Shown: positions 19,228 to 26,675 of the stretch, one piece after another
How positions within the stretch are numbered: the first letter of the stretch is position 1
How the letters are laid out: each line of letters starts with the position of its first letter
Origin: a virus
DNA: 39,847 bases
Virus record (IMG/VR): IMGVR_UViG_3300006990_000068
Location: 1-39,847 of that record
Direction: 5' to 3' (one strand)
The notes under the pieces: model-generated
The model's database searches: none
Told to the model about the DNA's origin: nothing
The model's input: only the letters and a program-made list of their open reading frames with translations
Made by a program: the position numbers and the translations under genes

Positions 19228-19860
19228 ATGACTAATACCGGCAAAAGCAAAGTCACTGGAAAGCCCCGTGACCGGCGGGGTCGTCCCCCTGCCACAATCG
19301 AACAGCCCCTGACTCGCAAGCAGGAGCTTTTTGTTAAAGAGCTTGTCAGTAAGGACGGGCAGATAACTTTACGGGAAGCGGCAATCAATGCTGGTTACGC
19401 CGCAGGCTCTGCCCACTCTAGGGCGTATGAGCTAACAAACCCTCATATGTCCCCGCACGTTGTTGCGGCAATCAATGCGTATCGCAGGGAACTGGACGAA
19501 AAGTTTGGGGTAACCTACCAAAGGCATTTACGGGACTTACAAAGCATACGGGATTTGGCCATTCAGAACGGGGCTTACTCTGCCGCCGTTCAAGCTGAGT
19601 ATCGCAGGGGGCAAGCGCAGGGTGACATCTATGTCAGCAAATCAGAAATCCGTCATGGGTCAATCGACAGCATGAGTAAGGATGACGTTTTGAAAGCACT
19701 TGAGGAGATAAAGAACAGCTATGCCCCGATCACAATCGACATCACTCCCGAAGAAAAAGACAATGCCAGCAATCGCGACAAAGCGAGAGGCAGGCTTTTA
19801 CAAGCAGGTGAAGGAAGCGGCGCAGAGAACGCGGAAGAAATGGAACTTAACGAGGATTGA
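19228..19860 (+). CDS. terS: Terminase small subunit
   Basis: 210 residues. A basic N-terminus (RDRRGRPPATIEQP, AT-hook-like RGRP) precedes the TerS DNA-binding core: LTRKQELFVKELVSKDGQ, LREAAINAGYAAGSAHSRAYEL (HTH, about 48-70), then a helical oligomerisation part (HLRDLQSIRDLAIQNGAYSAAVQAEYRRGQAQGDIY) typical of this family. TerS recognises the packaging site and regulates TerL. The gene is unusually placed 4.4 kb upstream of terL, with accessory genes in between. Start ATG 19228 with GGAG upstream. Its last 140 nt overlap the nuclease gene in another frame. Confidence 0.88.
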   Translation: MTNTGKSKVTGKPRDRRGRPPATIEQPLTRKQELFVKELVSKDGQITLREAAINAGYAAGSAHSRAYELTNPHMSPHVVAAINAYRRELDEKFGVTYQRHLRDLQSIRDLAIQNGAYSAAVQAEYRRGQAQGDIYVSKSEIRHGSIDSMSKDDVLKALEEIKNSYAPITIDITPEEKDNASNRDKARGRLLQAGEGSGAENAEEMELNED

Positions 19861-23691: not shown

Positions 23692-23724
23692 CCCCCGCTG
23701 GTACATAACCGGCGGGGGTTTTTT
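23692..23724 (+). terminator. Intrinsic terminator
   Basis: CCCCCGC (23692-23698) with GCGGGGG (23712-23718), inner pairing GGT/ACC, six T. Confidence 0.85.
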
Positions 23725-23820
23725 AATGCCCGCCAGCGGCCGCCCTAGCCCCCAGAATTAACCAGTTAAACCGGCCGCGCCCCGCCGCCCGTTAATCCCC
23801 TGAAACATACCGCGCCCCGT

Positions 23821-24038
23821 GATGCGCTGGCCGCCGGTTAACTTTTCCGGAAAGTTAGCCCCGCCGGATGCGCCGCCAGTGACCGGCACCGGATGCGCTG
23901 GCCGTGGTGACCGGTGATTGAACCGGCACCGGCTGGCCGTGAAACACGGGCTTTGATGCGCTGGCCGCGCTTGCCGGTTGCAGGAATCCGGATTCCGGCA
24001 TGGAACCAGAAATCCGCGGAAATCCGCCAAAAATCCGC
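23821..24038. repeat. GC-rich direct repeats in the non-coding region before terL
   Basis: The stretch 23671-24231 has no credible gene. Its first part, about 65-70% G+C, contains GATGCGCTGGCCG three times exactly (23821, 23892, 23955), ACCGGCACCGG twice (23882, 23922), the palindrome GGAATCCGGATTCC (23983-23996) and AATCCGC three times about 10 bp apart (24011, 24021, 24032). Frames across it exist on both strands but look like GC-biased noise. Confidence 0.75.
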
Positions 24039-24122
24039 GCACCCCGCGCCGCCGCCCACGGCTGGCGGGACGGGGGCTAGGGCCATGTTTCTCACAAATA
24101 ATCATGTGAAAAATGATATAAA

Positions 24123-24138
24123 TGTTTCACGTGAAACA
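24123..24138. other. Exact consensus parS (ParB-binding) sequence
   Basis: TGTTTCACGTGAAACA matches the bacterial chromosomal parS consensus at all 16 positions and extends to a 20-bp perfect palindrome (24121-24140). It sits in an AT-rich intergenic stretch 94 bp before terL. No parA or parB gene occurs in the window. Half-sites occur at 18552-18559 (TGTTTCAC) and 23939-23946 (GTGAAACA). ParB of the host, or of an unseen phage gene, would be expected to bind. A TetR-like operator is the main alternative. Confidence 0.7.
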
Positions 24139-24140
24139 TT

Positions 24141-24229
24141 GCCTAATAATTAGGCAGATACGCGGGGCTTGTTAACTGTCTAATTATTGTGCATATTTGT
24201 GCACATAATATGTGCAATTTAGGGGCCCC
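24141..24229. promoter_or_regulatory. Palindromes and TGTGCA repeats upstream of terL
   Basis: GCCTAATAATTAGGC palindrome (24141-24155); an inverted second copy of its half plus flank (24145-24157 versus 24176-24188); TGTGCA at 24188, 24198 and 24211, the middle one within palindromic TGTGCACA; and GGGGCCCC (24222-24229), ending 2 nt before the terL start. The upstream flank holds TCTCACA...TGTGAAA (24090-24109). No standard SD is seen for terL. Confidence 0.6.
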
Positions 24230-24231
24230 CT

Positions 24232-25677
24232 ATGGATGTATCCGATCAGGAGTTAAAGCTTCGCCTGCGACTCGCTCAAATCGAGAAGAATGAAGCCTGT
24301 AGAGAGACGTTTTTACCTTTTGTAAAATCTATGTGGCCGGAGTTCATTGCCGGTCGGCACCATAAAATCATTGCTGAAAAGTTAGAGCGGGTAGCTTCTG
24401 GTGAGTTAAAGCGTTTGATTATCAACATGGCCCCTCGTCATACGAAGTCAGAGTTTGCATCCTTCTTGTTTCCCGCTTGGATGATGGGCAAGAACCCGCG
24501 AATGAAGATCATTCAGGCCACGCACACGACAGAACTTGCGGTCAACTTTGGCCGTAAGACAAAAAATCTTTTGGACAGTGACGAATACAGAGAGGTGTTT
24601 CCTGATGTTAAACTGGCTTCTGATAGTAAAGCTTCTGGTCGTTGGGACACTGCTGCTGGCGGGATGTACTACGCCGTTGGTGTGGGATCGAACCTTGCCG
24701 GGCGTGGTGGCGACTTGGTAATTATTGACGATCCACATTCTGAGCAGACGGCGATGTCGGTAAACGGTTTTGACGATGCTTGGGATTGGTACACAGGGGG
24801 CCCCCGGCAGAGGCTCCAGCCGGGTGGGTCGATTGTTTTGGTCCAGACCCGGTGGTCAGAAAAGGATATGACGGGACAGCTTTTAAGGGCGATGGCTAAA
24901 GACCCCCTAGCTGACCAATGGGAAGTTGTGGAGCTTCCGGCTATTTTTGAAGATGACAAACCGTGCTGGCCGGAGTTTTGGTCTTTGGAAGACCTGACCG
25001 CGGTCAAGGCATCTATCCCGCCGAGCAAGTGGAACGCTCAGTATCAGCAGAACCCTACGGGTGAAGAGAACGCGATTATTCCCCGTGAGTGGTGGAACAA
25101 GTGGGAGAAGGACAGCATCCCTAGCTTGGAGTATGTCATTCAGAGTTATGACACGGCGTTTAGTAAGCGCGAGACGGCTGACTTTAGCGCGATAACAACG
25201 TGGGGTGTATTTCGTCCAGAGGAGGTTGGGGGCCCTCCGGCACTCATACTTTTGGACAGTAAGAAGGATAGATGGGATTTTCCGGAGCTCAAGAAGGAGG
25301 CTTTGGAGCAATATCAATACTGGGAGCCTGATACGGTAATTGTTGAGGCGAAGGCTTCTGGTTTGCCGCTGACGCAGGAATTAAGAAATATGGGCATACC
25401 TGTTGTTAACTTTACGCCGAGCAAGGGAAATGATAAGCTAACGCGAGTTCACTCTGTGTCGCCTCTTTTTGAGTCCGGTATGGTTTGGGCCCCCGACACC
25501 GTCTTTGCTGATGAGATGATAGAGGAGGTGGCGGCATTTCCAAACGGGGAGCACGACGATTTGGTTGATAGCATGACACAGGCATTGATGCGTTACCGGC
25601 AGGGTAACTTTGTTCAACTGCCTAGTGATGACTGGGACGAGTCGGACGGTAACGTACAAGTTAGGGCTTATTATTGA
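24232..25677 (+). CDS. terL: Terminase large subunit
   Basis: 481 residues. ATPase: Walker A-like MAPRHTKSE (66-74), Walker B LVIIDDP (162-168), LVQTRW coupling motif. RNase H-like nuclease: SYDTAFS (about 304-310), VEAKASG (about 376) and HDDLVDSM (about 443). The enzyme cuts concatemeric DNA and pumps it through the portal. The start ATG 24232 follows a GGGGCCCC palindrome rather than a clear SD, so translation may be restrained. First gene of the late operon; its stop overlaps the next start. Confidence 0.97.
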   Translation: MDVSDQELKLRLRLAQIEKNEACRETFLPFVKSMWPEFIAGRHHKIIAEKLERVASGELKRLIINMAPRHTKSEFASFLFPAWMMGKNPRMKIIQATHTTELAVNFGRKTKNLLDSDEYREVFPDVKLASDSKASGRWDTAAGGMYYAVGVGSNLAGRGGDLVIIDDPHSEQTAMSVNGFDDAWDWYTGGPRQRLQPGGSIVLVQTRWSEKDMTGQLLRAMAKDPLADQWEVVELPAIFEDDKPCWPEFWSLEDLTAVKASIPPSKWNAQYQQNPTGEENAIIPREWWNKWEKDSIPSLEYVIQSYDTAFSKRETADFSAITTWGVFRPEEVGGPPALILLDSKKDRWDFPELKKEALEQYQYWEPDTVIVEAKASGLPLTQELRNMGIPVVNFTPSKGNDKLTRVHSVSPLFESGMVWAPDTVFADEMIEEVAAFPNGEHDDLVDSMTQALMRYRQGNFVQLPSDDWDESDGNVQVRAYY

Positions 25678-26675
25678 TGGGTGATTCTGCGGTAAATCTT
25701 GGGGCGGGCGGAACTGATTTTTCAGGGATGTCTATGGATGAAATGATGTTTGGGGCCAGCGACCCGGCAGCCGCGTACCGCGCAACACGGCCCTCGTATG
25801 ATGAGTTTGGTCAGGGTTATGATTACCGTGACGGGCAGTTTCAGCCTGCGGTTGATGAAGAAGGCTACAATTTAGAAATTATGAACCCTTCCCGCAGTGC
25901 GGCCATTCAAGGGCGTGAATTTGAGCAGGAGTATGGTCGCGCCGATCCGTATGAAGGTTTAGCAAAGCCTGCTAAGCTTCGTGGTTTTTCCGAGGCAACA
26001 GAGTTATATTTGCAGGACGGCGGCAATCCGGTGGTAGAGGAAGCGGGCATTATGTCCGCTTTGTTGGACCCCCGCATAGATTTGCCTAGTTCTGAGGAGC
26101 AGGGCCTAGTTCGTGAGTCGGCTCGTACTGGCAGCGAGGGCGCTGCTATGTATTATCCGGAAGGGTCCCCGACATTTGAGCAGGTTTTGATGGATCAGTA
26201 TGGGTATCCGGATGTAGACCGCGAGATAGAATATGGCACCAGCACTACGGCGCAGATGCGGGCGGAGCGTCCACGGCATGATATGCCCACGTATCAGGAG
26301 TTGGAAGATGCACGGGCTCATGCGTTGCAGACAGCTTTGTTGGCCAAGGACATGGGTCCTGAGACGGCTACCAAGGTAGGCGGTCTGGGAGAGATGTTTG
26401 ATCGTTATATGCCTATTTTGGGCACTGCGACGGATGCGGATGTTGTGATGGACAAGCGGAATAATGCTTTTGGTGCACAGCTTTTGGCAAAGGCTGGTGT
26501 AGATGCTACGCCGCAGCAGCTAACTAAGATGGTAGATCAGGCTGTTTTTGACCAGTTGGATGTAGTTTTGGGCCGTGAGCCGGGGGAGAGGCGCTTTAAG
26601 TCGCCGGACACGGGCATAGATATTTTCTTCCCGCGTGATGCACAGGGATTTTTTGATATTAACAGGTACGACTAG
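25677..26675 (+). CDS. Unknown protein between terminase and portal
   Basis: 332 residues from ATG 25677 (TTG 25674 is also possible), overlapping the terL stop by 1 nt. Gly/Met/Asp-rich N-terminus (GGTDFSGMSMDEMMFGASDP), Tyr/Glu-rich middle, C-terminal more folded part (about 200-332) with VFDQLDVVLGREPGERRF. No family recognised. Location suggests a head-assembly or DNA-packaging accessory protein. Confidence 0.75.
   Translation: MGDSAVNLGAGGTDFSGMSMDEMMFGASDPAAAYRATRPSYDEFGQGYDYRDGQFQPAVDEEGYNLEIMNPSRSAAIQGREFEQEYGRADPYEGLAKPAKLRGFSEATELYLQDGGNPVVEEAGIMSALLDPRIDLPSSEEQGLVRESARTGSEGAAMYYPEGSPTFEQVLMDQYGYPDVDREIEYGTSTTAQMRAERPRHDMPTYQELEDARAHALQTALLAKDMGPETATKVGGLGEMFDRYMPILGTATDADVVMDKRNNAFGAQLLAKAGVDATPQQLTKMVDQAVFDQLDVVLGREPGERRFKSPDTGIDIFFPRDAQGFFDINRYD

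Follow-up and report, generated by a model that had tools for sequence, protein, structure and literature searches.

Phage-plasmids of the P1 and N15 type are phages with a centromere-like site, and they carry their own ParA and ParB together with their own parS. In bacteria, the ParB-parS system also loads SMC. ParB itself is loaded at parS as a CTP-dependent clamp, after which it spreads along the DNA (PMC12704722). In Pseudomonas aeruginosa, native ParB represses promoters adjoining the intergenic sites parS3 and parS4 (PMC5521831), and lambda engineered to carry parS forms fluorescent ParB foci within minutes of infection (PMC13190303).

The nearest precedent for a phage that uses the parS machinery of its host is the virulent phage phi29, which has host-type parS sites and no annotated ParB. 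In a passage of PMC9437464 that cites Meijer et al. (2005), it is reported to use host Spo0J/ParB for spore entrapment. Its four sites (TGTTTCACGTGGAACA; L303, positions 10445, 15903, 17243, and 18760) have one mismatch each; three of them lie inside annotated genes, and the fourth follows shortly after gene 16. In phage B103 there are two parS sites, an exact one and one with a single mismatch (L301, positions 15611 and 10120). The mobile element SGI1 likewise carries orphan parS sites, mimics that borrow the ParAB of another replicon, its IncC helper plasmid (PMC10954446).

Here we analyze a parS site in a marine phage genome, IMG/VR record IMGVR_UViG_3300006990_000068; the whole stretch of 39,847 nucleotides is referred to as the window. 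In contrast to phi29, the window's clade has a single intergenic site, at the leader of the late operon, and the hosts of these marine phages are presumably non-sporulating. SGI1 targets a plasmid ParB with plasmid-type parS, whereas this phage has the chromosomal consensus, the same 16 bp as in Alphaproteobacteria; there the host supplies parAB, and neither gene was found in the phage. Unlike in P1 and N15, neither ParA nor ParB was found in the window's clade. The arrangement resembles P. aeruginosa parS3 and parS4, where ParB lowers local transcription (PMC5521831), in that an intergenic parS stands beside a promoter, in the phage a putative one; those sites are chromosomal and tested, and the phage site is known from its anatomy alone. 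The sequence-only reading had regarded phage use of parS next to the terminase as new. This needs correction, as an orphan host-type parS was already known in virulent phi29 (with Spo0J) and exact parS sites occur widely among phage records.

The parS Site and Its Surroundings

The exact 16-bp bacterial parS consensus, TGTTTCACGTGAAACA, is the core of a 20-bp perfect palindrome, AATGTTTCACGTGAAACATT, 109 bp upstream of terL. Features of the region and related genes are as follows.

19228–19860, + strand: terS-like gene (phrog_51, E 5e-11); lies between the parS leader and terL in the L173 subclade (L173, 9026–9673)
19721–20185, + strand: nuclease/helicase-family ORF (phrog_2165, phrog_93) that travels with terS; similar ORF at L173, 9543–10001
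23691–23719, + strand: strong intrinsic terminator closing the preceding gene block (12-pair stem, then T run)
23720–24080, no strand: GC-rich (~65%) gap without genes, containing short direct repeats and hypervariable among relatives
24081–24120, + strand: leader block A, GGCCATGTTTCTC..AAATAAT..GTGAAAAATGATAT (also read GGCCATGTTTCTC..AAATAAT..GTGAAAAA), kept also in relatives without parS
24121–24140, no strand: 20-bp perfect palindrome around parS; outer 2 bp vary among relatives
24123–24138, no strand: parS, exact consensus; kept within one mismatch by 62 of the 76 informative relatives (counting the window)
24141–24155, no strand: GCCTAATAATTAGGC palindrome adjoining parS, variable in relatives and lost along with parS
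24169–24197, + strand: putative late promoter, TTGTTA (24169–24174), 17 bp, CATATT (24192–24197)
24232–25677, + strand: terL, encoding the terminase large subunit and opening the packaging/structural block (phrog_38, E 3e-109)

What the sequence-only reading had said of the site itself is borne out: it matches the consensus at every base, it is the core of a perfect palindrome, and it is free of genes, with the terminator, the GC-rich gap, and the leader preceding terL. Its view that chance is very unlikely also stands, both from simple arithmetic (~1e-5 for one specified 16-mer to occur exactly in 40 kb) and from conservation among relatives. A scan of the whole window at up to three mismatches found no second parS-like site, and dinucleotide shuffles of the window gave a mean of 0.21 near-sites at this threshold. 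Other intergenic gaps are present in the window, and parS occurs only in the late leader.

Downstream of the GC-rich gap the leader is AT-rich, and terL comes next. The putative promoter was recognized from low change counts in the leader; it has 8 of 12 consensus matches, which is below the cut-off and hence unreported by a consensus promoter scan. Its conserved elements lie 30 bp downstream of parS, the center of which would lie ~73 bp upstream of the transcription start. GC skew rises from ~0.04 to ~0.2 at terL (window 24000–26000), the border of two genome blocks, which places parS where the replication block meets the packaging/structural block.

Leader block A (40 bp) contains an imperfect inverted repeat. 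A further palindrome, AGGGGCCCC / AGGGGTCCC, directly precedes the start of terL (24221–24230 in the window; also in the L088 leader and most relatives' leaders), and in many relatives it is repeated ~200 bp upstream and followed by TATCGGGTCA.

Conservation and Position among Relatives

A terL search of IMG/VR yielded 80 related loci with 85–100% identity. A parS within one mismatch is present in 62 of the 76 informative relatives, the window counted; one of the 14 negatives (L177) is a contig that stops just short of the expected position. The sequence-only reading had proposed looking for parS upstream of terL in related phages and had named loss or decay of the palindrome in close relatives as evidence against a function; decay is not the general picture. 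When whole records of 20 relatives were searched, 16 had exactly one exact parS and the other four had none anywhere.

Presence of parS changes state at least six times on the TerL tree. Selection on the site was assessed in all leaders that have the two conserved flanking blocks (n = 69), a set not conditioned on parS. Fifty-two have an exact parS, two have one mismatch, and none has two or three; the other 15 have at least four mismatches, mostly from a missing segment. The clade of L147, L158–L160, L163, L165, and L166 cleanly lacks everything from parS up to the promoter-like block. By parsimony on the TerL tree, the 16 parS columns together have five changes, whereas the other leader columns average 4.9 each. 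No other 16-column stretch of the leader has so low a total, which makes parS the part that evolves most slowly. Coding constraint does not explain this, because by inspection the frame of parS relative to a conserved upstream ATG differs among relatives; a short conserved ORF through parS was rejected on the same ground. The pattern indicates that parS is kept by selection in the window's clade, and because it is conserved in relatives we take the window's copy to be a real parS-type site and not a chance match. Several subclades have lost parS and kept the remaining leader and terL, so packaging does not require the site.

Without exception, the 62 sites are in the late-operon leader, either at −56 to −327 from terL or immediately ahead of terS-nuclease-terL. 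Spacing from parS to terL is mostly 107–120 bp, with other values of 56–88, 151–152, 279, or 327 bp. The L173 subclade has terS and the nuclease gene in between, which puts parS 1055–1058 bp upstream of terL, and the same leader (parS, the GTTAACTG block, and the CATATT block) now precedes terS. This arrangement implies that parS goes with the start of the packaging operon and not with terL as such. Spacing from parS to the promoter-like elements shifts in L189, L198, and L199, where parS appears to be nearer the gene, on the other side of these elements, and the 16 letters are fixed. Fixed letters with shifting geometry are as would be expected for a protein that spreads.

Among cultured phages, HTVC027P was considered as an example and rejected: its one-mismatch site (L200, position 16412) is inside a nuclease-like open frame coding AFHVKHP, and synonymous changes break it in relatives, pointing to a probable coding coincidence. 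No site within two mismatches was found in the stretches read of HTVC023P, 023Pt_psg01, DSL-LC04, CRP-901, and CRP-810.

Partition and Integration Genes

The absence of a visible parA or parB in the sequence-only reading holds for the window's genome and for apparently near-complete relatives. ParB was not detected with PF02195 in 21 records of the clade. Neither ParB (TIGR00180), ParA (PF13614), nor tyrosine integrase (PF00589) was detected in 12 records, five of which are 51–58 kb, about the size of cultured relatives (57.6–61.5 kb). In most or all of the control genomes the same profile searches do recover these families, although a very divergent ParB could escape them. By these searches the locus is not a phage-plasmid ParABS system with its own parA and parB beside the site; nor, without a tyrosine integrase in the 12 records, does anything point to a prophage or a temperate integrating phage. 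A consensus parS with no detected phage ParB or ParA is what characterizes an orphan host-type site.

parS in Other Phages and in Candidate Hosts

A scan of IMG/VR found exact parS in at least 120 contigs, compared to 11 in the whole collection for a control palindrome of the same composition (TTGTCTACGTAGACAA). In INPHARED, a padded 20-mer search returned 212 records for parS and none for the control, although some of the 212 (e.g., the Listeria LM series) resemble bacterial sequence. These comparisons show that parS is not peculiar to the window's phage. In the 120 IMG/VR contigs listed, 46% of sites are outside long open frames (vs. 13% of random positions). Any ParB-domain match was found in five of 40 parS-bearing viral contigs.

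Among the matches listed, 34 of the 120 parS contigs have a TerL homolog. These include 21 distinct ones below 80% identity, from distant phages (TerL 25–76% identical), and in nine of the 21 parS is no more than 1 kb upstream of terL, compared to 3.5 expected (p ~ 0.002, a value that ignores phylogeny); examples are L007, L019, L088, and L044 (five sites). Three to five exact copies, mostly upstream of terL, occur at L044 10535–11462, L017 2657–3444, and L053 240–961, where TerL is ~28% identical.

Exact parS with palindromic flanks is also found in isolated phages, including DSS3P8, vB_RpoS-V10, and DSS3_MAL1 (Ruegeria hosts), phages of Gordonia, Microbacterium, Arthrobacter, and Lactobacillus, and several Microviridae; several of these records have multiple sites. 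Our literature search found no report of parS in these phages and no general survey of orphan parS in phages.

The window's terL occurs in three GTDB contigs, two binned as Verrucomicrobia and one as Maricaulis. Canonical parS is nearly absent from the sampled Verrucomicrobiota: it was found within one mismatch in three of 145 genomes, and one of the three hits is the phage contig itself. In Alphaproteobacteria it is present within one mismatch in 125 of 142 sampled genomes, commonly in two or more copies, so suitable hosts exist. If host ParB is the ligand, a verrucomicrobium would be an unlikely host, mis-binning being likelier, and an alphaproteobacterium would fit; this follows from the parS site and is not an independent host assignment.

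Proposed Role of parS

The orphan parS is a likely candidate loading site for host chromosomal ParB, placed at the head of the packaging/late operon in phages without detectable ParB or ParA. That host ParB is the ligand we consider probable (roughly 0.85). The main effect of its binding may be on expression of the late operon, which we would put at somewhat under even odds. Because parS is fixed to the late leader, we favor this effect over positioning of the phage DNA, a close rival from which the data do not separate it.

Host ParB would bind the phage parS and load as CTP-dependent clamps, which would slide over the adjacent leader and terL as they do at chromosomal parS. While infecting genomes are few and host ParB is plentiful, the late leader would be covered and weakly expressed; once phage copies exceed the supply of ParB the operon would be released, and its packaging and structural genes would in this way be coupled to replication. 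The same ParB complex could pass phage DNA to host ParA and SMC. More specifically, ParB might act as a copy-number sensor: loaded at a single parS, it would keep the late packaging operon low until there are more phage genomes than ParB. Such a device would have arisen or spread among distant phages with parS just upstream of terL. We offer this version tentatively and think it more apt to be wrong than right.

Several observations weigh against a late-operon effect. The promoter is a putative one, and any benefit of parS must be conditional, because several subclades lost the site and kept the leader. The apparent position of parS beyond the promoter-like elements in L189, L198, and L199 would not favor a strict promoter switch. 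As for late-gene timing, phi29 reportedly uses Spo0J for a different end, spore entrapment (as described in PMC9437464).

The strongest alternative is that host ParB on parS positions, tethers, or segregates phage DNA via host ParA, either by polar or origin-proximal placement or by delivering stalled or pseudolysogenic genomes to both daughters. It is possible but distinctly doubtful. The phi29 genome, with four one-mismatch sites, is reportedly trapped in spores via Spo0J (PMC9437464, citing Meijer 2005), and SGI1 is stabilized by its helper's ParAB through two functional parS mimics (PMC10954446). A single parS per genome could suffice in principle, and the small share of parS-bearing viral contigs with a ParB-domain match also counts in its favor. 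A pure partition site would, however, be free to sit anywhere, yet every one of the 62 is in the late leader. The searches turned up neither an integrase nor partition genes that would suggest a persistent state, and the hosts are presumably marine bacteria that do not sporulate.

ParB at parS might instead recruit host SMC/condensin, or mark DNA near the packaging genes, and so aid condensation or packaging of new genomes. SMC loading by ParB-parS is established in bacteria, parS stands beside terL or terS in the clade, and it is enriched upstream of terL in distant phages. We nevertheless consider this unlikely, since relatives that lack parS keep terL and the leader, and contig ends near terL are scattered and not fixed. 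Such ends fall within 650 bp upstream of terL in 24 of 80 related contigs; a fixed packaging terminus at the leader was rejected on this basis, and it is likelier that assemblies broke off in the GC-rich hypervariable gap.

It is also improbable that the ligand is a phage or host regulator other than host ParB, with an operator that happens to equal parS. A palindrome is the normal shape of an operator, and this one adjoins a promoter-like element, but the 16-bp consensus is exact across diverged phages with no intermediate variants, and in phages at large it exceeds the control palindrome at least about tenfold.

A decoy function, in which replicating phage DNA titrates host ParB off the chromosome and disturbs segregation or division, is very improbable: phage copies would presumably exceed chromosomal parS during replication, and extra parS copies in the SGI1 system destabilize the helper plasmid (PMC10954446), but there is one site per genome and titration alone would not fix it in the late leader. 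Chance or coding coincidence, the likely origin of the HTVC027P site, has next to no probability for the window's clade, where conservation refutes it: parS there is non-coding, stands in differing frames, and is nearly invariant.

Implications

An exact, single parS in a large group of marine phages in which no ParB gene was found suggests that a segregation protein of the host is borrowed. If host ParB does bind this site, abundant marine phages would exploit bacterial chromosome segregation through 16 bp and with no protein of their own, and the phi29 case would be extended beyond spore entrapment, to phages whose hosts presumably do not sporulate. The site would also serve as a sequence marker constraining hosts to bacteria whose ParB reads TGTTTCACGTGAAACA. 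The group would then be a test case for what ParB loading controls, the late genes or the placement of phage DNA, for which the natural presence and loss of parS among close relatives provide ready-made comparisons.
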